Below the pieces are notes generated by a model. That model saw only the letters and a program-made list of their open reading frames with translations. It was not told where the DNA came from and searched no databases. A DNA stretch of 64,000 bases. Source: a virus. The position numbers and the translations under genes are program-made. How positions within the stretch are numbered: position 1 is the first letter of the stretch; every line of letters starts with the position of its first letter. The stretch covers positions 124,001 through 188,000 of IMG/VR virus record IMGVR_UViG_3300034073_003340; one strand, written 5' to 3'. Below are positions 6,518-63,776 of this stretch, one piece after another.

Positions 6518-6775
6518 TTAGGCGCGACCAACAGCGGCAAGAATTTCTTCTACCTCATTGACAGCTTCCTTGTCAGCTTCAAGCGATGCCTTGTAAGCAG
6601 CCTTAATAGCTTTGTTGATGGCAGCTGGCTTCAGATTTAGTTCTTCAGCAACTGCCTTGACTACATCCTTGAAGCCTGCCTTGAGGTCATCAACTTCCTG
6701 TGTGATCTTGAGACCTTCGTCGATAACGCGCTTGAGCTTCTTGGTATCTTCGGTGGTCAGGTTAGTGGTGCTCAT
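6518..6775 (-). CDS. DsbA-like double-stranded DNA-binding protein
   Basis: 85 residues, entirely helical in appearance: KKLKRVIDEGLKI, then VVKAVAEELNLKPAAINKAI, then a KASLEADKEAVNEVEEI tail. The organisation (helical N-terminus, helix-turn-helix-like middle, acidic C-terminal helix) and size fit T4 DsbA, a DNA-binding protein implicated in late transcription. T4-like late promoter motifs in this window make that role fitting. Start chosen at 6775 (GGAGA 5 nt upstream) rather than the longer in-frame extension. Homology is judged by eye, so moderate confidence. Confidence 0.55.
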   Translation of the reverse strand: MSTTNLTTEDTKKLKRVIDEGLKITQEVDDLKAGFKDVVKAVAEELNLKPAAINKAIKAAYKASLEADKEAVNEVEEILAAVGRA

Positions 6776-24758: not shown

Positions 24759-27128
24759 TTAAGCGAATAGATCCGCTTGCGCTTCTGTCGTCTTGGATTC
24801 AGAGGAGTTGATAACAAGCTTGTCGTTATCAACTGTCACCGTAGCGTGGCCACCGTCCTTGAGGGCACCAAACAACATAATACGGCTCAGTGGCTTACTG
24901 AGTTCGTCCTGGATAAGGCGGCTCAGTGGTCGAGCACCCATCTTGGGATCATATCCCTTCTTCGCCAAGTAGTTACGAGCGACGTCATCAACGTCGATGG
25001 TAACACCCTTTTCCTGCGCTTGCTTGTTCAGTTGAGTCAGGAACTTTTCAACAATCATGAGCATGTTCTCGCTCTTGAGAGCCTTGAACTTCACGATAGC
25101 ATCAAGTCGGTTCCTAAACTCAGGAGCAAACATCTTTTCAATGACCTTGTCGTCATTTCCAACAGTGCTGTTGTCACCAAAGCCCAGAGTGTTTTTCTGG
25201 AGTTCACTAGCACCAGCATTGCTAGTCATAATGAGGATCACGTTGCGGAAGTTGACGGTCTTGCCTGCGCTATTAGTCAGTTGACCGTTATCCATGACCT
25301 GTAGGAAAATATTGAAGATATCCGGGTGAGCCTTCTCAAGTTCGTCAATGAGCAGAACGCAATGAGGACTGTTCTCGACCGCGTTAGTCAGAAGACCTGA
25401 ACCCGAGGCACCGTCACCAAATCCAACGTAACCCGGAGGCGAGCCAATGAACTTGCTGACCGAGTGCTTTTCCATATACTCGCTCATATCAAAACGATGT
25501 AGTGGAATGCTCAAGGTAGCAGCAAGCTGCTTCGCAAGTTCGGTCTTACCCACGCCAGTTGGCCCAGCGAAAAGATAATTGCCCTGCGGCTTGTTGGGAT
25601 CGCGAAGGCCTGCCCGGCTCAGGAATACAGCATCAACAACGTTATCAATTGCGTCATCCTGTCCAAACACTGCCTTATGCAGATCCTGTTCAAGATGCGC
25701 CAGCTTCTGTGTTTCGTCTTCCTTGACCGTGCGAGCTGGGATCTTCGCAATCCGGCTGACTTCTTCCTCAACCAATTCAATAGTGATCTCGGTCTTGCGG
25801 TCAGCCTCTGGCGTAATCTTCTGACGAGCACCGGCCGCGTCGATGACGTCAATAGCCTTGTCAGGCAGCATCCGGTCAGTCACATAGCGGGCAGTCAACT
25901 CAACGGCGGCTTCCAGGGCCTCCTGTGTGTAGGTAATGCCATGATATTCGGCATATACCTGACTAATACCCTGTAGAATACGCTTGGCGTCTTCTACGCT
26001 AGGCTCATTGACATCCAATTTCTGGAAACGTCGCAGGAGAGCACGGTCCTTTTCAAAATGCTTTCGATATTCCTCAAAAGTCGTGCCGCCAATACACCGC
26101 AGCTTGCCCTTGGCCAATGCCGGCTTCAAAAGGTTTGCCACATCAAGCCCGCCGCTACTGCCGGCTCCTGCTCCCATGATGGTGTGGATTTCGTCAATAA
26201 ACAACATGGGCATAATGCCCTTTTCTTCACCGACCTTTTCTACCGCATCAATAATTTGCTTGACCCGTTCCTCCATGTCACCACGGAACTTGGTTCCGGC
26301 CATGAGAGTTCCGATTTCCAACGAATACACGATGCTGCCCTTGATCGCATCTGGGACATTACCTTCGGCAATCATCTTGGCAAGCCCTTCAACTACCGCA
26401 GTCTTACCGACTCCAGGCTCACCAACTACGACCGCATTATTCTTGGTGCGACGAGCAGTAGTCAGAATAAGTGAATCCACCTCGGCCTCGCGACCAATAA
26501 GCGGGTCAATCTTTCCAGCAAGAGCCTGCTCATTGAGATTAACGCAGAACTTCTCCAAAAGGCGCTCACTCTTGCTCTTCTTAGAACCAGAGATGGGTTC
26601 ACCGTCTTCATCAACTTCAACGGCGGGAGAATCACCGGCGTCCTTGGCCTTGAGATCTGCCACCAGATCCGGTTCGTCATCATCTAGCAGATCATCATGA
26701 GCAATTGTGGTCTTGACATCAAAGGCATCAACATTCTGTTTTGCCAAGAAATAGACCGCATGACTATCCTGATCCTGCTCGGAAAGCAAAGAGACTAGAA
26801 TATCAACAGCGCGAATGGTATGACGACCACTGAAAAGCGCCTGTGTTACCGTTCTCTGAACCACTCGACTCAGAGGAAGAGTTTGACGTGGAGGAGTGCC
26901 ATTGGCTTTGCCAAGAGCACCGCTGGCAAAATGCGAAACCAGATCAGCAGAAATACCAGAGACGTTTGCTCCGATTTCGTGCAGAACTTCGATAACTCGC
27001 TGATCCTGGAGGATGCTGGCCAGCAAGTGTTCCAGCGTAACATATTCATGATCGTGGCGTTCAGCAATTTCTGCCGCACGATCAAAAATTTCCTGAGCCT
27101 TTGTTGGGTCAAATTGATCCAAGGACAT
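24759..27128 (-). CDS. clpA: ClpA-type AAA+ unfoldase
   Basis: 789 residues. Clp N-domain (HEYVTLEHLLASIL), first AAA+ with GEPGVGKTAVVEGLA and LFIDEIHTIMGAG, second AAA+ with GPTGVGKTELAKQLA and LLIDELEKAHPDIFN. There is no long ClpB middle coiled-coil, so it is ClpA/ClpC-like. Between the second Walker B and the sensor region is NTLGFGDNS, matching the [LIV]-G-[FL] loop that docks on ClpP. The phage also encodes ClpP (35518), so a phage ClpAP protease is likely. Directly follows peptide deformylase. Confidence 0.9.
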   Translation of the reverse strand: MSLDQFDPTKAQEIFDRAAEIAERHDHEYVTLEHLLASILQDQRVIEVLHEIGANVSGISADLVSHFASGALGKANGTPPRQTLPLSRVVQRTVTQALFSGRHTIRAVDILVSLLSEQDQDSHAVYFLAKQNVDAFDVKTTIAHDDLLDDDEPDLVADLKAKDAGDSPAVEVDEDGEPISGSKKSKSERLLEKFCVNLNEQALAGKIDPLIGREAEVDSLILTTARRTKNNAVVVGEPGVGKTAVVEGLAKMIAEGNVPDAIKGSIVYSLEIGTLMAGTKFRGDMEERVKQIIDAVEKVGEEKGIMPMLFIDEIHTIMGAGAGSSGGLDVANLLKPALAKGKLRCIGGTTFEEYRKHFEKDRALLRRFQKLDVNEPSVEDAKRILQGISQVYAEYHGITYTQEALEAAVELTARYVTDRMLPDKAIDVIDAAGARQKITPEADRKTEITIELVEEEVSRIAKIPARTVKEDETQKLAHLEQDLHKAVFGQDDAIDNVVDAVFLSRAGLRDPNKPQGNYLFAGPTGVGKTELAKQLAATLSIPLHRFDMSEYMEKHSVSKFIGSPPGYVGFGDGASGSGLLTNAVENSPHCVLLIDELEKAHPDIFNIFLQVMDNGQLTNSAGKTVNFRNVILIMTSNAGASELQKNTLGFGDNSTVGNDDKVIEKMFAPEFRNRLDAIVKFKALKSENMLMIVEKFLTQLNKQAQEKGVTIDVDDVARNYLAKKGYDPKMGARPLSRLIQDELSKPLSRIMLFGALKDGGHATVTVDNDKLVINSSESKTTEAQADLFA

Positions 27129-28026: not shown

Positions 28027-28884
28027 TCAACCGTTATTCAAATTACGAGCCTTCTCGATAAGTTCGCGCTGTTCATCGGAAAGTTTTGATGGCGAGAAAA
28101 CGACCTCAACCATCATGTCCCCTCTTTGACCATTTCCCATTGGCATACCCTTACCAGCAGCTCTCAAACTTTGACCAGGTTGAATTCCTGCTGGGATTCG
28201 CATCTTGATCTTACTACCTTCTATTGTGGTAATCTCGCGATCGGCGCCCAACATTGCGTCCATATAATCAATAGTGGTACTGGTAACCAAATGGTATCCC
28301 ATTCTCACAAATACATTATGGGGAATGATGTTTATACGGATGTATAGATCACCCGGCGGGGCTTCGGCTATCGAATTATCCCCTTTTCCATGGAACCTGA
28401 GGCGGATTCCGTCTTGTATACCTGAAGGTATCTTAAACTGAATAGATTGCGCTTCCTTACCAGGTAGATTATATTTGACGTCAGCATCCTTACCCCAGAA
28501 CGCTTCCTCCAAAGTTATGGCATAAGAAATAACGATATCACGATTTACTACGGTATCATACTGATAATGTCTCGCTCGACGATTCTGAATATCACGCAAT
28601 ATATCGTCTAGATTGACAGATCCTCCAAATCCTCCCGGCTGATTACTCCAGTATGACTGTGATCCAGTGCGAAACCCACCAGATCTTTCTAAATCATATT
28701 GGGCCCGTTTGGTTGGGTCCTTGAGAGTATCATATGCTTCGTTGATTTCTTTGAACTTGGCCTCAGCATTTGAAGATTTGTTGGTATCAGGATGAAACTC
28801 TTTTGCCAGCTTGCGATAAGCAGATTTCAAGGTAGCATCATCTGCTGTCGAGGTGACCCCAAGGATCTGGTAAAAATCTTTCAT
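28027..28884 (-). CDS. DnaJ/CbpA-like J-domain co-chaperone
   Basis: N-terminal J domain with HPD (AKEFHPDTNK) and the YDTLKDPTKRAQYD helix, a G/S/N-rich linker, then the two beta-sandwich substrate-binding domains (IVISYAITLEEAFWG, GDLYIRINIIPHNVF, GDMMVEVVFSPSK). There are no CxxCxGxG zinc repeats, so it is CbpA/class B-like. 285 residues. It would recruit host DnaK. Same strand and near def/clpA, forming a protein-quality cluster. Confidence 0.9.
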   Translation of the reverse strand: MKDFYQILGVTSTADDATLKSAYRKLAKEFHPDTNKSSNAEAKFKEINEAYDTLKDPTKRAQYDLERSGGFRTGSQSYWSNQPGGFGGSVNLDDILRDIQNRRARHYQYDTVVNRDIVISYAITLEEAFWGKDADVKYNLPGKEAQSIQFKIPSGIQDGIRLRFHGKGDNSIAEAPPGDLYIRINIIPHNVFVRMGYHLVTSTTIDYMDAMLGADREITTIEGSKIKMRIPAGIQPGQSLRAAGKGMPMGNGQRGDMMVEVVFSPSKLSDEQRELIEKARNLNNG

Positions 28885-34860: not shown

Positions 34861-35079
34861 TCATTTATATCGGAATGTGATTCGACCCTTGGATAGGTCA
34901 TAGGGTGTCATTTCTAATTCCACTGCGTCGCCTACAAGCACTTTGATGTTGTTCTTGCGCATCTTGCCTGAGATGTGACCAATAATCATGGCGTCATTCT
35001 CTAGCTTTACACGGAATAGCGCGTTAGGAAGGATCTCAGTGACTTGACCCTTCATCTTCAATGTATCTTCTTTGCTCAT
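34861..35079 (-). CDS. infA: Translation initiation factor IF-1
   Basis: 72 residues, the size of bacterial IF-1, with a single S1/OB fold: [58 protein letters not shown]. The GKMRKN and [10 protein letters not shown] segments are diagnostic. The ITFRYK ending is close to alphaproteobacterial IF-1 (RITYRFK), suggesting capture from such a host. It would bind the 30S A site and could bias initiation toward phage mRNAs, which here often seem leaderless or hairpin-masked (inference). Confidence 0.95.
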
Positions 35080-37956: not shown

Positions 37957-38033
37957 CGGGGTTTAGCGCAGCCTGGTAGCGCACCTGCTTTGGGAGCAGG
38001 GGGCCGTAGGTTCGAATCCTACAATCCCGACCA
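37957..38033 (+). tRNA. tRNA-Pro (anticodon UGG)
   Basis: Acceptor CGGGGTT/AATCCCG, anticodon stem CCTGC/GCAGG with loop TTTGGGA (anticodon TGG), T-arm with GTTCGAATC, encoded ACCA. Followed by a classical terminator. Confidence 0.94.
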
Positions 38034-38061
38034 AAGGCCGAACAGAAATGTTCGGCCTTTT
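38033..38061 (+). terminator. Intrinsic terminator after tRNA-Pro
   Basis: AAAGGCCGAAC (38033-38043) pairs with GTTCGGCCTTT (38050-38060), followed by TTCCTT. Confidence 0.85.
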
Positions 38062-38063
38062 CC

Positions 38064-38091
38064 TTGACTTCTGTTCCTGTTCTGCTAACAT
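38064..38091 (+). promoter_or_regulatory. Sigma70-like promoter 6 nt before an ATG
   Basis: TTGACT, spacer 16, TAACAT, ending 6 nt before ATG 38098. No Shine-Dalgarno is present, so the mRNA should be leaderless. Confidence 0.55.
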
Positions 38092-38097
38092 CTTGGC

Positions 38098-38379
38098 ATG
38101 TATTATATAGAAAATACAGATTGGCACATCATTGTTCTTAATTCCAAAGAGACTGATGTCTTCTTTGAAGTATTCAATCTTGCAGATGAAGAAATACCTA
38201 GTCATCTGATTAACGCAGGCTGGCGATTTATCAGGGATGATGCTTACCAGTGGCTGCTAGACAATGTTGGTGTTGCTAATGTGGATTGGCGACACCAAGG
38301 AACACGCACCTCACGTGAATTTTTGTTTCGCGACAAGGAAAAAGCCATGCTATTCAAGCTGACATTCCACGGGACATAA
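38098..38379 (+). CDS. FKL-family protein, solitary copy (93 aa)
   Basis: Strand WHIIVLNSKETDVFFEV, helix DAYQWLLDNVG, and terminal FRDKEKAMLFKLTFHGT. It has its own promoter, unlike chained copies. Function unknown. Confidence 0.72.
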   Translation: MYYIENTDWHIIVLNSKETDVFFEVFNLADEEIPSHLINAGWRFIRDDAYQWLLDNVGVANVDWRHQGTRTSREFLFRDKEKAMLFKLTFHGT

Positions 38380-38394
38380 TCATATCCTTTTCGC

Positions 38395-38422
38395 TTGACT
38401 AGCACCCTAATCGTGTTATTCA
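38395..38422 (+). promoter_or_regulatory. Sigma70-like promoter 6 nt before an ATG
   Basis: TTGACT, spacer 16, TATTCA, ending 6 nt before ATG 38429. Same geometry as 38064-38091. Confidence 0.55.
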
Positions 38423-38428
38423 TAGGAC

Positions 38429-38626
38429 ATGGACATATTATCATTCATGGCAGAGCATCCCATCCTCACGGTGATCCTCGCCTTTATCGCAGGAAGCGTA
38501 GTCACCTCACCCTTTCGGTATGGTTTTCGCGCCTACAATAGACATCTTCGTTCCAAGAACATAGCGGCCCAGGGTTGGCCGCCTGAGCATTTGGACGCCG
38601 ATGGTGATTTCAAGAAGACGGAGTAA
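38429..38626 (+). CDS. Small membrane protein with GWPPEHLDADGDF motif (65 aa)
   Basis: One hydrophobic helix (PILTVILAFIAGSVVTSPF) and then the tail IAAQGWPPEHLDADGDFKKT. That tail pattern is familiar from many short phage and bacterial hypothetical proteins; its role is unknown. The leaderless-type promoter lies directly upstream. Confidence 0.65.
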   Translation: MDILSFMAEHPILTVILAFIAGSVVTSPFRYGFRAYNRHLRSKNIAAQGWPPEHLDADGDFKKTE

Positions 38627-40845: not shown

Positions 40846-41563
40846 CCTGCTCCAAAGGCGCCACTACTGGCTTTGGAGTGAAACCACCGGCTGATGAACG
40901 ATCAAGTTCCAACATCACTTCATTGATATCTTCAATAGCCAGATCGTGGAATGCGGTCCAATTGGCTTCCAGCACCTTTGCGTACGGCGTATCGGGATCT
41001 TCTATCTTAAAAATACCTCGATCTGCCAAGAGTATAATCAGTTGCTGATCTCTGGCATCCATACTTTCAAGACGAGCATCTTGCTCCATTAGAGCAGCCA
41101 GACTCTTGCCTATTCTGTTCCAACGAGTCCGTATGGTAGACCGCACATCAGTCCATGACTTAGCCAGCTGGTTAGTGCGATTTTGCCATTCTTTTAGCTT
41201 AATCTGATATGAACGATCCTGCGCGTTCTTTTCTTCACTAACCTGACGTTCATGTTTGCGAGCCTTTTCAAGCTCGTCGTCGAGAACCAGCTTTGCCACC
41301 ATCAGGAATTTTTTGTAAAAGTGATGAAGAATCGGATAATTCTCCATCTCACGATATGCCGCCTCCTGGAGAACTTTGAACTCAAAGCCTCGTAGGCCAA
41401 ATTCTGCCGCCGTGCTATCCAGAGGATGGGTGGGGTAAGACCAGGGCTTGGGCTCTGGCTTTTCGATCTTATTGAGACGTTCCTCGATATCAGAGGCACC
41501 GAACTTGAGTCGCCCGGATATCTCTCTTAATAGGTTTTCATCTAGATAGGATTTACGCGGCAT
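40811..41563 (-). CDS. Coiled-coil protein (250 aa)
   Basis: Start at 41563 (MPRKSYLDENLLREISG). Long charged helix (DELEKARKHERQVSEEKNAQ, IKLKEWQNRTNQLAKSW), proline-rich ends. Overlaps the upstream gene by 11 nt. 3' end overlaps the convergent 40393 gene by 35 nt. Unknown; possibly structural. Confidence 0.55.
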   Translation of the reverse strand: MPRKSYLDENLLREISGRLKFGASDIEERLNKIEKPEPKPWSYPTHPLDSTAAEFGLRGFEFKVLQEAAYREMENYPILHHFYKKFLMVAKLVLDDELEKARKHERQVSEEKNAQDRSYQIKLKEWQNRTNQLAKSWTDVRSTIRTRWNRIGKSLAALMEQDARLESMDARDQQLIILLADRGIFKIEDPDTPYAKVLEANWTAFHDLAIEDINEVMLELDRSSAGGFTPKPVVAPLEQVSQEPLYEERS

Positions 41564-42062
41564 CAACCCGTCCGTAAATGACATCACCCTTACGTTGACC
41601 GCCGAGTTTGAAATAAACTAGCTCTGCTCGGAAATCCTTGAGAGCATCGGTCTTGGTTTCCAGCAGCAGATCGATATAACGCATCTCAATGCTGCCCTTA
41701 TTCAGCATGGCTCGATAATACTCGATAGTGGCGCGGTAATCAGGCTTTTGAGACTTGTTGTCCCAAAGGATACCAGCTTGAAGCGTCTGGAACGCATAAG
41801 TGCCAGTTTCGTTGAGGATCTTTTTAACAATCCAAAGACCATTCTCCATGACCGGCTTCTGGACGCTAACAAACGGTTTGAATGAACCCTGTGATGAGAT
41901 TTCAGCCTCGTAAATCTCGTAGGCAATTTCCTCGGGGGAATCGTCCTCTACGAGATCCTTGATCTTTTCCATATCGATCAAGATGTTCTTCTTGCCAGAA
42001 GCAATAGTCTCGAACATCTGGTGTTCGCGGGCGAAGGGCATATAGTGTGATTCGTTGCTCAT
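41553..42062 (-). CDS. Unknown 169-residue protein with leaderless promoter
   Basis: Start at 42062 (MSNESHYMPFAREHQMFETI). Contains an acidic helix (DMEKIKDLVEDDSPEEIAYE) and a C-terminal strand pair. The predicted transcription start coincides with ATG. Not recognised. The longer frame starting with TTG at 42101 would lie inside the promoter. Confidence 0.6.
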   Translation of the reverse strand: MSNESHYMPFAREHQMFETIASGKKNILIDMEKIKDLVEDDSPEEIAYEIYEAEISSQGSFKPFVSVQKPVMENGLWIVKKILNETGTYAFQTLQAGILWDNKSQKPDYRATIEYYRAMLNKGSIEMRYIDLLLETKTDALKDFRAELVYFKLGGQRKGDVIYGRVDAA

Positions 42063-42069
42063 GTGGGTA

Positions 42070-42097
42070 TTTGTAACAGGTGTGATTGTTCTGTCAA
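42070..42097 (-). promoter_or_regulatory. Sigma70-like promoter 7 nt before ATG 42062
   Basis: Minus strand TTGACA (RC of 42092-42097), spacer 16, TACAAA (RC of 42070-42075). It lies immediately after the phoH terminator's U-tract. Confidence 0.6.
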
Positions 42098-59213: not shown

Positions 59214-59520
59214 GGATGTGGATACGTTAGATCAAGACGAGCATAATCCCAGTATGCTCCAATCAGAAAAAATTTCAAATAGTCGCAGCATCACCAGAGA
59301 GCCTCATATATTCAGGCTCACTCAAAGCTTTCTACCTGGCGGTGGAGTCAACATCGTCATAGTTAGCTTTGACGGTTCTATCGTTCATATCCTACAAAAC
59401 GATGACTATTGGAATAGCGAATTCAAGTGTGGCGAGAACCGCATATACGTCAAGGGTTATTGGGATCTCTTGGACAACAATATCTATCTTGGTGAAAGAG
59501 TAAACGACCAGTCATGGTAG
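59212..59520 (+). CDS. Unknown 102-residue protein with masked start
   Basis: Begins MDVDTLDQDEHNPSMLQSEK (acidic, probably flexible), then a strand-rich part (VNIVIVSFDGSIVHILQND, NRIYVKGYWDLLDNNIYLG). It lacks the FKL motif but heads the FKL array, and the next gene overlaps its stop. GTG 59218 is an alternative start with better spacing. Confidence 0.5.
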   Translation: MDVDTLDQDEHNPSMLQSEKISNSRSITREPHIFRLTQSFLPGGGVNIVIVSFDGSIVHILQNDDYWNSEFKCGENRIYVKGYWDLLDNNIYLGERVNDQSW

Positions 59521-59720
59521 TTGAAAAATTTAGCCAAGTCTGGCCTTACGTTGTAAGGATTCAGGAAGGTATCTCTTACGACGAGATACTCGCTTGGGCG
59601 TTTACTCGCGCTGAGTCCATGGGTCTCGAGTCACGTGATATCTATACTAGCTTTTCACGTCTTCATTTTGGTTTCAAAGACAAACAAATAGCCATGGAGT
59701 TTAAACTCCGATTTGGTTGA
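59514..59720 (+). CDS. FKL-family protein (68 aa)
   Basis: Among the shortest copies: strand WPYVVRIQEGI, helix YDEILAWAFTRAES, terminal FGFKDKQIAMEFKLRFG. Its stop codon forms part of the TTGACA for the next gene. Function unknown. Confidence 0.7.
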   Translation: MVVEKFSQVWPYVVRIQEGISYDEILAWAFTRAESMGLESRDIYTSFSRLHFGFKDKQIAMEFKLRFG

Positions 59721-59744
59721 CAGTTTATCTGAATGCGCTATTAT
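59717..59744 (+). promoter_or_regulatory. Sigma70-like promoter inside the FKL array
   Basis: TTGACA (59717-59722), spacer 16, TATTAT. Its -10 ends 3 or 6 nt before the tandem ATGs at 59748 and 59751, predicting a leaderless mRNA for the distal array. Confidence 0.65.
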
Positions 59745-59747
59745 GGT

Positions 59748-59984
59748 ATGATGCGCCAGATCGTAAGCAAATATCGTGAATTTCCGATCGCGTTGGAATG
59801 GAATTCCAACTCAAAAGATAGCGACTTTTCACAATGGAAAAACGATCTTGGACTCAGATATAACCGTGACTACATTCTATTCGAATATGAAGAGCAACGT
59901 CATCCTGCCAAATATTCAACAGCAGTAGCCTTCAAGAACAAAGACAACGCTTTGCTTTACAAAATCAGGTTTGCTGGACTATGA
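59748..59984 (+). CDS. FKL-family protein, leaderless start (78 aa)
   Basis: The tandem ATG ATG at 59748 and 59751 follows the promoter; the earlier in-frame ATG 59733 lies upstream of the predicted transcription start. Strand REFPIALEWNSNSK, helix FSQWKNDLG, end FKNKDNALLYKIRFAGL. Function unknown. Confidence 0.68.
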   Translation: MMRQIVSKYREFPIALEWNSNSKDSDFSQWKNDLGLRYNRDYILFEYEEQRHPAKYSTAVAFKNKDNALLYKIRFAGL

Positions 59985-60505
59985 TCGGTTGGTCATATAG
60001 AAACATCTTCATTCCATTGAAGACTATCACCCACACATACCAAGATGGTTTTACTATGCGGCCGGAAGTTTACGATTGGCTAGATAGAAATCATGGCTGG
60101 GATGGACCGGATCGCTACTTTGTTAGTGATCCCAACGAAGCACGTCCGTTTGAAACATGGCAAAACGTTGATAACGAATGGGCTAAGATGATATTCAATC
60201 ATCCCGAAATGGCCTATCAGTTTTTATTAGCGTTCACCGACCTAACACCCGAACACAAATATCAGGTAAAGATCTCCATTCCAACTCATTATTGGACTAA
60301 GAGGAATGACATCGTTTGCGCAATGGCATCGCAATTGATCTTTCTGGCTCAACGTGGCTTGGTAGAAGATAAAGACTTTGTCTGGTCTATGATCAAAATG
60401 AGTTATGAAGATCTTGATCTCAATGAGGAAAATAGCGAGATCGTTTTTTCTTTCTTAGATCGTAGTGCCGCTCTCATGTTCAAATTGTCTTGGGGTGGAT
60501 CATGA
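59981..60505 (+). CDS. FKL-family protein, longest copy, possibly duplicated (174 aa)
   Basis: Two half-domains: the first has PEVYDWLDRNHGW and FNHPEMAYQFLLAF (a degenerate FKL motif), the second VCAMASQLIFLAQR and FLDRSAALMFKLSWGGS. This suggests an internal duplication. Start overlaps the previous stop (ATGA). Function unknown. Confidence 0.68.
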   Translation: MIGWSYRNIFIPLKTITHTYQDGFTMRPEVYDWLDRNHGWDGPDRYFVSDPNEARPFETWQNVDNEWAKMIFNHPEMAYQFLLAFTDLTPEHKYQVKISIPTHYWTKRNDIVCAMASQLIFLAQRGLVEDKDFVWSMIKMSYEDLDLNEENSEIVFSFLDRSAALMFKLSWGGS

Positions 60506-60729
60506 TCTCTTCGGATATCATAGCATCAGGAAGGTATCATCAAGTCAACATACCATTTTGTGATGATAGTCTATATGGCAACGAGGTGATCAGCTGGCTA
60601 ACCGAACACGGTATCAAGTGGCATCTGGATTTTGATTTTGATATGAATGGCGGTCAGATTGGGTATTGTTCCTTTTTCTTTAGATCAAGAAAACATGCCA
60701 TCTGGACCGCACTGGTCTGGCTATCATGA
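60502..60729 (+). CDS. FKL-family protein (75 aa)
   Basis: ATGA overlap, Shine-Dalgarno GGGGTGG from the upstream W-G-G codons. Strand YHQVNIPFCDD, helix NEVISWLTEHGIK, end FRSRKHAIWTALVWLS, where FKL becomes TAL. Function unknown. Confidence 0.65.
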   Translation: MISSDIIASGRYHQVNIPFCDDSLYGNEVISWLTEHGIKWHLDFDFDMNGGQIGYCSFFFRSRKHAIWTALVWLS

Positions 60730-60971
60730 AAAGAATGAACAAAGACGAATGGTTGCGAGAATGCCCTTACCATTTTCTAATAGTAAACAGTCTAGACATT
60801 GACGCAGCCATTGAGTGGTGCTTGGACTCTCTTGAGCCAAGAGAGTGGTTTGTTGTAGAAAACTCTTCCATTTTTGATCCTTCAACTATGGAAAGAACTT
60901 CCGAAATGCTTTTTGCTTTTAGACACAAAAAGCACGCTATGATTTTCAAACTTAGATGGTGGAAAATCTAA
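60726..60971 (+). CDS. FKL-family protein (81 aa)
   Basis: ATGA overlap. Strand YHFLIVNSLD, helix DAAIEWCLDSLEPR, terminal FRHKKHAMIFKLRWWKI. Acidic/polar middle. Function unknown. Confidence 0.7.
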   Translation: MKRMNKDEWLRECPYHFLIVNSLDIDAAIEWCLDSLEPREWFVVENSSIFDPSTMERTSEMLFAFRHKKHAMIFKLRWWKI

Positions 60972-61010
60972 ATATTGATTTGTTGAATACCATCGCTCTA
61001 GATATTCCAT

Positions 61011-61283
61011 ATGAACGCCGCATTAGAGCTAAATCTGAATCCAGAATTCAAGCATATCGTATGGGTCAAAATGGATGGCCACATCATGAGCGAATCAGCG
61101 CAGGAACAGCGAGACCAGCTAGCTGTGTGGTTTCTTCGTAGCAACATCGAGGAATCCGACATTGAAAGTGTCTACGCCACTATCGATGAAAATAAGCCAT
61201 CATGGAAGATTCCTGCCACTCATATGATCTTCGCTTTCAAAGACCCTCAGAAAGCCGCGCTGTTTAAGCTTGCCTGGGGATAA
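61011..61283 (+). CDS. FKL-family protein (90 aa)
   Basis: Strand FKHIVWVKMDGH, helix RDQLAVWFLRSNIEE, end FKDPQKAALFKLAWG. It starts 39 nt after the previous stop. An overlapping frame from ATG 60956 encodes a different sequence and is probably not used. Function unknown. Confidence 0.68.
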   Translation: MNAALELNLNPEFKHIVWVKMDGHIMSESAQEQRDQLAVWFLRSNIEESDIESVYATIDENKPSWKIPATHMIFAFKDPQKAALFKLAWG

Positions 61284-61291
61284 AATAGAAC

Positions 61292-61522
61292 ATGGAAGAA
61301 ATCTATGTAAAAACCCGCAAGCTCACCATGGCTAATCTTGAGAATGTCAGCAAATGGCTTGATGACAATGTCACTGGTCCCGTAACGATAAGAGGCACTC
61401 ATTACCGAACTTATATCCAGCAATATTGCGGAGAAAACGATGGTAACAAAAAAATCCACGTCTTAAAAGTCAGTTTTTTCAACGAAACAGATGCTCGTCA
61501 CTTTTTGATGGCTTGGGGTTGA
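61292..61522 (+). CDS. FKL-family protein (76 aa)
   Basis: Strand MEEIYVKTRKLTM, helix LENVSKWLDDNVTG, end FFNETDARHFLMAWG, in which K-L becomes L-M. Starts 8 nt after the previous stop with TAAAAT near it. Function unknown. Confidence 0.68.
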   Translation: MEEIYVKTRKLTMANLENVSKWLDDNVTGPVTIRGTHYRTYIQQYCGENDGNKKIHVLKVSFFNETDARHFLMAWG

Positions 61523-61546
61523 CAAATCACCTCTTTTTGCTAAAAC
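61519..61546 (+). promoter_or_regulatory. Sigma70-like promoter within the FKL array
   Basis: TTGACA, spacer 16, TAAAAC; overlaps the preceding stop codon. Leader of about 12 nt carries AGGAGG for ATG 61565. Confidence 0.55.
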
Positions 61547-61564
61547 GTGGCGAAAGGAGGACAT

Positions 61565-61810
61565 ATGGCTGACTTGCGTGATATACCTGAGATCTACCCC
61601 AATGAGGTTACACTCAAGCATCAAGGCCGCCGCTATGACGTCAGCCTCGCAGTCGTCAAATGGCTTGAGTCCCACAAGATCATGAATATCGAGGATTTTC
61701 ACCTCGAGATGAATTTCTCTGAAGACAAGATCGCAGTTCTATTCAAGAAGAAAAAGAACGCCAAGATCTTCAAGAAAAACAAAAAGACTATTCGTGAGTC
61801 GGTCAATTGA
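61565..61810 (+). CDS. Degenerate FKL-family protein with lysine-rich end (81 aa)
   Basis: Strong AGGAGG 4 nt before ATG. Helix LAVVKWLESHKIM fits, then the motif degenerates to FKKKKNAKIFKKNKKT, a polylysine tail instead of L-x-W-G. May bind nucleic acid. Codon use is more GC-rich than its neighbours. Function un known. Confidence 0.6.
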   Translation: MADLRDIPEIYPNEVTLKHQGRRYDVSLAVVKWLESHKIMNIEDFHLEMNFSEDKIAVLFKKKKNAKIFKKNKKTIRESVN

Positions 61811-62103
61811 CAACCCACGTCGGTGTCTGGCTTGGTCCAACCCAGGAGGGTATGGACAAACTAGGCAAAATTACCAAATGGCTGAGTGAAGGAAACTTCG
61901 TACCAGCCTATAGTATGACAGATCTAGTTTGGGGCAAGAACAAATATTTCTCTCGTCTCACTCAAAATAAAACAAATCCATTTTCCTACACAGTGTCAGA
62001 ATCTTGTCCGCCAGACGAGATTAATGCTGATTTTTACCTTCACGTTTATTTTAAGTCAGCAGAAGATGCCCTACTTTTCAAGCTTACATGGGGTGGACAA
62101 TGA
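61807..62103 (+). CDS. FKL-family protein, TTG start (98 aa)
   Basis: TTGA start/stop overlap. Strand THVGVWLGPTQE, helix KLGKITKWLSEG, end YFKSAEDALLFKLTWGG, a full match to the consensus. Function unknown. Confidence 0.7.
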   Translation: MTTHVGVWLGPTQEGMDKLGKITKWLSEGNFVPAYSMTDLVWGKNKYFSRLTQNKTNPFSYTVSESCPPDEINADFYLHVYFKSAEDALLFKLTWGGQ

Positions 62104-62456
62104 AAGTTTGGCCAGGCTCTACAGTTGATACTCGACTAACAAAGGTCGAAGTGCCGTTACCGCATAGTCAGCTGGTTCTGAATAAACATATTCGCGAAAC
62201 CGCCCCGGAGATTCAACATCTCCTATTCATGCCTGAAATGGACTTGTGGTTTCAAGACCATAATCTCAATAGGGCGCCTGATCCTGTTGATGTTTATAAG
62301 AACTCTGGCTATGATTTCGCAACTGACCGACGGATCATAAACGTTCGGGGTCTTGGATCAGTAGGCGGTTGGGTCAAGGAAACCAATCAGATCAATTTTT
62401 ACTTTCTGGACCCCAAGATGGCTGTTTTGTTCAAACTAGTGTGGTGCGGCCAATGA
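62100..62456 (+). CDS. FKL-family protein (118 aa)
   Basis: ATGA overlap with GGGGTGG Shine-Dalgarno. Longer N-terminal part with TKVEVPLPHSQLVLNKHIRE, and end FLDPKMAVLFKLVWCGQ, where the first G of W-G-G is C. Function unknown. Confidence 0.7.
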   Translation: MKVWPGSTVDTRLTKVEVPLPHSQLVLNKHIRETAPEIQHLLFMPEMDLWFQDHNLNRAPDPVDVYKNSGYDFATDRRIINVRGLGSVGGWVKETNQINFYFLDPKMAVLFKLVWCGQ

Positions 62457-62677
62457 CAAAGAAGGAATGGCCATATAGGGTAACCGCAGTGGTTCATGAG
62501 CTCAAATTCAGAGAGCTGTTGACATGGCTTCATGATGCCGGCCATACTCTTCACGCTACGGTGAAATTTGGAAAACAACATCGTCTAACCATAGATAGTC
62601 CTATGGTAAAACAGGAAGTTGCTTTCAAGGACGGAAATCAAGCAATGATATTCAAACTAGCGTGGGGTGGAAAATGA
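62453..62677 (+). CDS. FKL-family protein (74 aa)
   Basis: ATGA overlap. A compact example of the fold: strand WPYRVTAVVHEL, helix FRELLTWLHDAGH, strand LHATVKFGKQ, end FKDGNQAMIFKLAWGGK. Function unknown. Confidence 0.72.
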   Translation: MTKKEWPYRVTAVVHELKFRELLTWLHDAGHTLHATVKFGKQHRLTIDSPMVKQEVAFKDGNQAMIFKLAWGGK

Positions 62678-62934
62678 CACCTCAACAAAAGGCAATGGCG
62701 CAAATTCTTCAAGTCACCTTGTTTAAGTTGGCAGAAGAAACCCATCAAATATTAGATCGACTCCGTCAAAGATATCCTGATTCACGAGAAAGATTTGACC
62801 TTTTGAGTCGGCAAGTAGAAACTGCCGTTGATAGGACTCTTGAAGATTATCATACCAACGGTAGAAATTTTTCAGTTCAAGAAATGGACAAGATCCATTC
62901 TGATATTATTGAGATAAGACGTCTCCTTGGGTAA
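62674..62934 (+). CDS. Unknown helical protein in the FKL array (86 aa)
   Basis: ATGA overlap, GGGGTGG Shine-Dalgarno. All-helical: MTPQQKAMAQILQVTLFKLA, then RLRQRYPDSRERFDLLSRQ and DKIHSDIIEIRRLLG. It lacks the family motif, so it is a guest gene or an extreme divergence. Function unknown. Confidence 0.6.
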   Translation: MTPQQKAMAQILQVTLFKLAEETHQILDRLRQRYPDSRERFDLLSRQVETAVDRTLEDYHTNGRNFSVQEMDKIHSDIIEIRRLLG

Positions 62935-63220
62935 AGAAACATATCTTGGTGTACAATGGACAACTGTTTTGATCCCTATTACCTCCATGGTTTGCGTAAC
63001 AAAATTGGCCTACGATGGATATGGCAAATATGATGTATTGAATTTGCCCGAAGACATGGAGAATTGGCTTTACAGCGAAACTGATGGCATACAGCACTCC
63101 AGAGTAGATAAGAGACACTGGTGGTGGGATATTGATGATATAGACCATGTTAAATTTTACTTTAGAGACGTCTCTACTGCTATCAAGTTCAAATTAACAT
63201 GGGGTGGCGTATGTCGCTGA
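62927..63220 (+). CDS. FKL-family protein, TTG start (97 aa)
   Basis: TTG at 62927 overlaps the previous stop. Strand WTTVLIPITSMVCV, helix PEDMENWLYSETDG, end YFRDVSTAIKFKLTWGG followed by VCR. Function unknown. Confidence 0.68.
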   Translation: MGKETYLGVQWTTVLIPITSMVCVTKLAYDGYGKYDVLNLPEDMENWLYSETDGIQHSRVDKRHWWWDIDDIDHVKFYFRDVSTAIKFKLTWGGVCR

Positions 63221-63540
63221 TACTCTGGGATAGTGATAATCCCCTTAAAGTTATCATCACACAGGCCATTGATTACAATCAATTAGTTTTGCGAGAACCT
63301 CGGTCGGACGCTGAAAAAGAAGAGAGGCGCAACAGAAGAAATAAACAAACGTCTTCAGAAAAGCTACGTGATCTATTTTGGGAGACTTTTCAGGCACATT
63401 GGCGGGCTTCTCCTTTTTATTCGTGGTTTGAAGAGTTCTGCCCGGGTTATAAAGTATTCAAGATGTCTGGAACCGATAGTGTGTCCATTGAGTTCGCAGA
63501 TCACAGACAGGCGGTCCTATTCAAATTGACATGGGGGTAG
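63211..63540 (+). CDS. FKL-family protein (109 aa)
   Basis: Start at 63211 (MSLILWDSDNPLKVI) just behind GGGGTGG; a charged segment (EKEERRNRRNKQ) is inserted before the helix, and the end is FADHRQAVLFKLTWG. Function unknown. Confidence 0.7.
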   Translation: MSLILWDSDNPLKVIITQAIDYNQLVLREPRSDAEKEERRNRRNKQTSSEKLRDLFWETFQAHWRASPFYSWFEEFCPGYKVFKMSGTDSVSIEFADHRQAVLFKLTWG

Positions 63541-63542
63541 GC

Positions 63543-63761
63543 GTGAGCGGCTGTATTCTACCTTTTGATAAAGTGGCCAGCTATGACTGGAATAGAGAAA
63601 TCAAAGTCCTTATAAACGAGGATATACGGATTTGGCTATCTGAACACCAGGGTTCATATGTTTGGTTGATCAACTCAGTATCACATATCGAAAGCTGGCA
63701 GGTATCCTTTGAATTCGTTAATCACTCTGACTTGGTGTTGTTCAAATTGACTTTTGGTTAA
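63543..63761 (+). CDS. FKL-family protein, GTG start (72 aa)
   Basis: GTG 63543 has GGGGG 5 nt upstream in the previous terminal codons; ATG 63531 lacks a site. Strand REIKVLINEDI, helix NEDIRIWLSEHQGS, end FVNHSDLVLFKLTFG. Its last codons contribute the -35 of the next promoter. Function unknown. Confidence 0.68.
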   Translation: MSGCILPFDKVASYDWNREIKVLINEDIRIWLSEHQGSYVWLINSVSHIESWQVSFEFVNHSDLVLFKLTFG

Positions 63762-63776
63762 ATGTGGCTTCATAAT
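63747..63776 (+). promoter_or_regulatory. Sigma70-like promoter overlapping FKL codons
   Basis: TTGACT (in the codons for K-L-T-F), spacer 18, CATAAT, ending 6 nt before ATG 63783. Confidence 0.45.

Follow-up and report, generated by a model that had tools for sequence, protein, structure and literature searches.

Promoters ending 6 nt before ATG predict a class of leaderless genes in a jumbo phage and its relatives

Two adjacent promoters and their genes

Two neighbouring genes of a jumbo phage are each preceded by a promoter-like sequence whose -10 box ends just 6 nt before an ATG. This arrangement raises the question of whether the phage makes leaderless mRNAs, and how many of its genes would be expressed in this way. 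The window analysed here is a stretch of 64,000 nucleotides, bases 124001–188000 of the 435,856-bp IMG/VR jumbo phage record IMGVR_UViG_3300034073_003340. Coordinates of sites are window positions unless labelled as G000 C1 (G000 being this phage) or as stretch L006, L009, L014, L015 or L018. The two sites and their immediate surroundings comprise the following features.

37957–38033, plus strand: tRNA-Pro (TGG), directly upstream of the promoter of gene 38098
38033–38060, plus strand: terminator-like hairpin with a 9-bp stem, between tRNA-Pro and that promoter
38064–38091, plus strand: promoter of the first candidate leaderless gene, read directly as TTGACT (38064–38069), N16 and TAACAT (38086–38091)
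38098–38379, plus strand: candidate leaderless gene of 93 aa, ATG 6 nt past the -10 box, no Shine-Dalgarno (SD) sequence
38395–38422, plus strand: promoter of the second candidate leaderless gene, TTGACT (38395–38400), N16 and TATTCA (38417–38422)
38429–38626, plus strand: candidate leaderless gene of 65 aa, ATG 6 nt past the -10 box

Direct reading confirmed exactly the original prediction, which had placed TTGACT-N16-TAACAT and TTGACT-N16-TATTCA 6 nt before ATG 38098 and ATG 38429, respectively. The N16 spacer of the first promoter ends in TGC, immediately before the -10 box. The 93-aa protein has the C-terminal tail LFKLTFHGT and gave no matches against Pfam and PHROG. The 6-nt geometry of its gene is kept in the orthologs of four close IMG/VR relatives (G002, G004, G005 and G006; protein identity 41–49%), and a gene of Sinorhizobium phage Phosso that follows tRNA-Pro, at 6673, has the same geometry. 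The second start, at 38429, is supported by Pseudomonas phage homologs of the 65-aa protein, which align from residue 1. Its geometry is not kept in the sole ortholog found (G002).

Phage genomes and gene calling

The DNA polymerase of this phage has Phosso (58%) and Agrobacterium phage Atu_ph07 (51%) as its nearest named phages, followed by GAP32/CBB-like jumbo phages. Relatives of the polymerase were found on 13 IMG/VR contigs, the majority of them 79–100% identical. The sequence compared covers most or all of G002, G004, G005, G006, Phosso, Atu_ph07 and GAP32. Genes were called with a home-made hexamer-based caller, which gave 644 genes in this phage and chose the same start as GenBank for 78 of 95 genes in part of Phosso. 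The caller awards a bonus for an SD and is therefore biased against SD-less starts, i.e. against the result described below.

Spacing between promoters and start codons

Within the window, TTGAC-N17-19-TA-N10-ATG occurs five times, compared to 0.63 expected, and none of 100 dinucleotide shuffles reaches five. One of the five matches (53212, plus strand) lies antisense within a long gene and is probably due to chance. Across the complete genome, a count of the pattern without any gene calling gives 30 occurrences, versus 2 times for the reversed pattern and 9 times with the ATG shifted 6 nt further. Corresponding counts (pattern/reversed) in six relatives are 41/0, 37/2, 37/0, 28/0, 16/1 and 12/0, while Phosso has 19 matches, 4 reversed and 2 at the shifted spacing. 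Besides 6673, predicted leaderless genes of Phosso include those at 72331 and 438864. Shifting the ATG by these 6 nt thus removes most of the excess. The motif-to-ATG spacing, on which the original prediction had turned, is far above chance both in the shuffled window and genome-wide.

The same picture emerged when the genome was scanned for sigma70-like promoters with a position weight matrix and their distances to all called starts were tabulated, with a sharp peak of 17 genes at 6 nt against about one per position nearby. An SD is missing from 14 of these 17 genes, while genes with an SD have their promoters 18–36 nt upstream in the same scan. The peak is present in five genomes (this phage, G002, G004, G005 and G006). 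Likewise, TTGAC precedes 34 of 629 called starts by 33–36 nt (4.0 expected, P ~2e-20), and does so 23–39 times in each of the four relatives (2–5 expected).

When the five genomes are pooled (TTGACn-N16-18-TA), 22, 103 and 19 genes have 5, 6 and 7 nt, respectively, between the -10 box and the start codon. Only 5 cases fall between 10 and 17 nt, whereas the range of 18–36 nt is well filled, with an SD in nearly all genes. An SD-like tetramer accompanies 29% of the close-promoter genes versus 93% of the leadered genes (P 8e-56), a contrast that holds for the class and not for each member. The description of such sites as mostly lacking an SD is accurate for both the peak and the pooled set. Close-promoter genes also start with ATG more often (161/164, 98%) than leadered genes (86%, P 5e-7). 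A chance origin of the spacing is excluded by the shuffles, the reversed patterns and the other offsets. A gene-caller artefact is also excluded, as the caller favoured an SD and the pattern counts are independent of it.

From the 6-nt peak, the nearly empty range of short leaders, the near-absence of SD, the prevalence of ATG and the conservation described below, we infer leaderless translation, with transcripts starting at the ATG. About 28–35 genes per genome very probably form a leaderless class, with promoters of the TTGAC family that also serves the leadered genes of the phage. The scarcity of distances between 10 and 17 nt is what leaderless expression predicts, because with a leader of a few bases the AUG no longer lies at the 5' end, yet there is no room for an SD. 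Part of the class may be mis-started or leadered, since about 29% of its genes carry a nearby SD-like tetramer.

Conservation and distribution

Alignments of the sequence upstream of orthologs show that TTGAC, TA and the spacing to ATG are kept while the remainder changes. Unconstrained spacer positions are mostly 30–50% identical between orthologs, and the flanking DNA has diverged to ~40% identity. The geometry is found in both members of 101 ortholog pairs and in one member only of 49, so one partner is without it in about a third of the pairs that have it at all.

The promoters might be real and the 6-nt spacing a mere product of genome compaction, with transcript starts falling by chance within or ahead of the start codon, and translation relying on read-through from upstream operons. 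Intergenic gaps are indeed short (median 41 nt), and most genes of the class lie behind a gene on the same strand. Compaction, however, predicts a spread of distances rather than a peak at 6 nt with next to nothing at 10–17 nt, and it does not account for SD loss and ATG enrichment that are specific to the close-promoter class. Furthermore, Atu_ph07 and GAP32, which are also jumbo phages, display the leadered peak without the 6-nt peak. We consider the compaction explanation very unlikely. A general habit of alphaproteobacterial phages can be rejected as well, as the arrangement is not seen in Atu_ph07, and CcrColossus, phiM12 and Bajun have few pattern matches. Being far too regular for chance and kept in related phages, the arrangement suggests that the leaderless start, a rarely used translation mode, is routine among these phages.

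Further sites in the window

Beyond the two adjacent genes, the window contains additional candidates with the same architecture.

59717–59744, plus strand: promoter TTGACA-N16-TATTAT (score 12.3); 6-nt geometry in G004, G005 and G006
59751–59984, plus strand: candidate leaderless gene of 77 aa
63747–63776, plus strand: promoter TTGACT-N18-CATAAT, 6 nt before ATG 63783 (score 9.8); geometry shared by G002, G004 and G005
42070–42097, minus strand: promoter TTGACA-N16-TACAAA, 7 nt before ATG 42062 (score 7.8)
41553–42062, minus strand: candidate leaderless gene of 169 aa
28891–28919, minus strand: promoter TTGACT-N17-TAGAAC, 6 nt before ATG 28884; 6-nt geometry in 4/4 relatives
28027–28884, minus strand: DnaJ-like candidate leaderless gene (Pfam DnaJ and DnaJ_C)

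The first of these promoters is followed by ATG 59748 at 3 nt and ATG 59751 at 6 nt, and its -35 box overlaps the stop codon of the preceding gene. The -35 box of the promoter at 63747–63776 sits in the FKLTFG codons of the preceding gene. At 42062 the geometry is kept, with 6 nt in G002 and G006 and 7 nt in G005. Among the further sites that had been put forward, 59751, 63783 and 42062 are borne out by strong scores and conservation, whereas several others are weak. Site 32829 (score 5.3, without an ortholog) and site 33329 (score 4.3, not kept in relatives) are unsupported, and sites 22575 and 29514 score at most 3.3, although part of their sequence is kept in relatives. The DnaJ-like gene at 28884 is among the best sites and was missing from the original prediction.

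A C-terminal tail of the form A(M/L)LFKL(T/A)W(G)G ends 47 of the 644 called proteins, compared to ~0.6 expected by chance. Such tails number 33–55 in the relatives and Phosso and 1 each in Atu_ph07 and GAP32. They are found on otherwise different small proteins (38098–38379, 59514–59720 and 59981–63761 in the window; also in L009 and L018), and their codons sometimes provide the -35 box of the next gene.

The position of the promoter is helpful for annotation, as it reveals starts that SD-based callers miss; 38429 and 59751 are examples for the caller used here.

Proposed mechanism

We propose that one sigma70-type promoter family (TTGAC, a spacer usually of 16–18 nt, often TG before a TAnnnn -10 box) would be used in two fixed arrangements. 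In the leadered arrangement (~100 genes), the -10 box lies 18–36 nt before the start, followed by an SD. In the leaderless arrangement (~28–35 genes), the -10 box ends 6 nt (5–7) before the ATG. With the usual sigma70 geometry, RNA polymerase would be expected to initiate at the A of this ATG or at a neighbouring base, yielding a leaderless mRNA. Such an mRNA could be read through its 5'-terminal AUG by 70S ribosomes or by 30S-fMet-tRNA, without an SD.

The promoters are probably read by host RNA polymerase carrying the housekeeping sigma factor, since a search of the phage revealed no homolog of the beta subunit. The multisubunit RNA polymerase beta domain (PF00562) is absent in 6/6 phages and was detected in all 14 control genomes. 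Single-subunit (T7-type) RNA polymerase (PF00940) had no match in the phages, nor in any of the control genomes.

Predicted members of the class include DnaJ, RNase H, cysteinyl-tRNA synthetase, ATP-grasp, HD-domain, AAA kinase, T5orf172 and staphylococcal-nuclease homologs, along with many genes without an assignable function. No virion-protein family match was found among the 20 class members examined. Genes without TTGAC have TAAATA-type 7-mers upstream, which we take to resemble T4-type late promoters. As these late-like 7-mers mark the genes without TTGAC, promoters of the TTGAC type probably act in the early or middle phase of infection.

Inverted repeats at the promoters

Inverted repeats surround the -10 box in some of the promoters, a feature dispensable for an ordinary sigma70 promoter. 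They are centred on the -10 box in 14 of 143 elements of the leaderless class (~0.2 expected) and in 56 of 436 leadered elements (~3 expected). This excess might indicate that the element is not a promoter but an RNA hairpin within a longer transcript, with one arm in the "spacer" and the other after the "-10", and with a role in translation or processing. Several observations argue against such a hairpin. Most elements are without a long stem, and in this genome a 7-bp stem is present in 0 of 28 leaderless-class elements (scanned promoter region). TTGAC, the 16–18 nt spacing, TG and TA are classic sigma70 features. In addition, the elements are located in intergenic gaps and seldom lie less than 15 nt from the preceding gene. 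A hairpin in place of a promoter is accordingly highly improbable, and we retain the promoter interpretation.

Inverted repeats are also found just after TTGAC (32 versus ~1 expected). Stems of the repeats at the two positions reach up to 16 bp, and their arms vary from gene to gene among the TTGAC promoters of G000, G002, G004, G005 and G006 (e.g. ttgacgaATTCACCAGTTCtgctaGAACTGGTGAATaagcag). A search for base pairing at fixed positions between promoter columns gave weak signals, so the repeats do not share a single fixed geometry. They may represent operators, cruciforms or RNA hairpins.

Initiation factors

The phage had been predicted to encode its own IF-1, which is correct.

34861–35079, minus strand: translation initiation factor IF-1 (PF01176, E = 1e-23)

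IF-1 is encoded by this phage, six IMG/VR relatives and Phosso, all with the 6-nt excess. It is absent from Atu_ph07, GAP32, XbC2 and a Vibrio phage, where the excess is not clear. The suggested link between IF-1 and leaderless initiation thus agrees with their co-occurrence, a correlation among carriers that make up one lineage.

A phage-borne IF-1 could shift initiation toward leaderless mRNAs and so give rise to the class, in addition to the promoter mechanism proposed above rather than as an alternative to it. Presence and absence of IF-1 match the 6-nt excess across these phages, and IF1 and IF2 were reported to stimulate leaderless translation in vitro (reviewed in PMC9031893). On the other hand, the carriers form a single lineage and may reflect one evolutionary event; the FKL tails, another lineage-specific trait, are distributed as IF-1 is. 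LR756511, LR756508 and Acinetobacter phage MD-2021a encode IF-1 without a clear motif excess, although their promoters may differ, and these three records do not support IF-1 as a general predictor of the 6-nt motif. Of 8 phages tested, 7 (GAP32 among them) encode IF-3, a factor that tends to inhibit the translation of leaderless messages. Overall, a contribution of IF-1 seems rather unlikely.

This phage also encodes IF-3 and a homolog of ribosomal protein bS21, close together (G000 C1:361983-362234 and 358984-359121). It is conceivable, if doubtful, that the lineage keeps a leaderless regulon of ~30 genes with its own IF-1, IF-3 and bS21 such that leaderless and leadered messages are translated differently as infection proceeds.

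Comparison with known leaderless systems

Leaderless genes are already known in bacteria and phages; the class in this phage is unusually clean and testable. A -10 box abutting the ORF was described for Deinococcus-Thermus (PMC12340547), where, as here, TANNNT just before ATG gives leaderless mRNAs and genes with an SD coexist. The phage class differs in its added strong -35 TTGAC, its carrier (the Atu_ph07/Phosso lineage) and its size (~5% of genes). In Sinorhizobium meliloti, the host of Phosso (the nearest cultured relative), 171 leaderless mRNAs were mapped by RNA-seq, all of them with AUG (PMC3616915), while for the phage the prediction draws on sequence and conservation.

Many leaderless transcripts occur in the large phages phiKZ and phiYS40, and lambda cI is transcribed from PRM. 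phiKZ uses its own multisubunit RNA polymerases, unlike this phage, which has no beta-subunit homolog and has TTGAC/TA promoters. lambda cI is a leaderless phage gene (PMC9031893) and shares with the present class a sigma70 promoter and a transcript start at AUG (predicted here); it and other such phage genes occur singly, compared to ~30 per genome with a fixed architecture. Our literature search, which covered few subscription papers, returned no report of such a leaderless class for these phages.

For proteobacteria, discussion of leaderless translation usually centres on individual genes or on stress. A conserved leaderless class beside a leadered class, both with one promoter family, offers a natural system for studying the purpose of leaderless starts and the relevance of IF-1.

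Other features of the phage

At G000 C1:307501-327500 (L015), 51 predicted tRNA genes lie clustered, four of them tRNA-Met(CAT). Two tRNAs with a CTA anticodon (L006:19130-19204 and L014:5758-5833), labelled tRNA-Pyl by ARAGORN, are possibly amber suppressors. Within the window, a 789-aa gene (24759–27128) matches the phage ATP-dependent protease family phrog_4871 (E = 1e-261).
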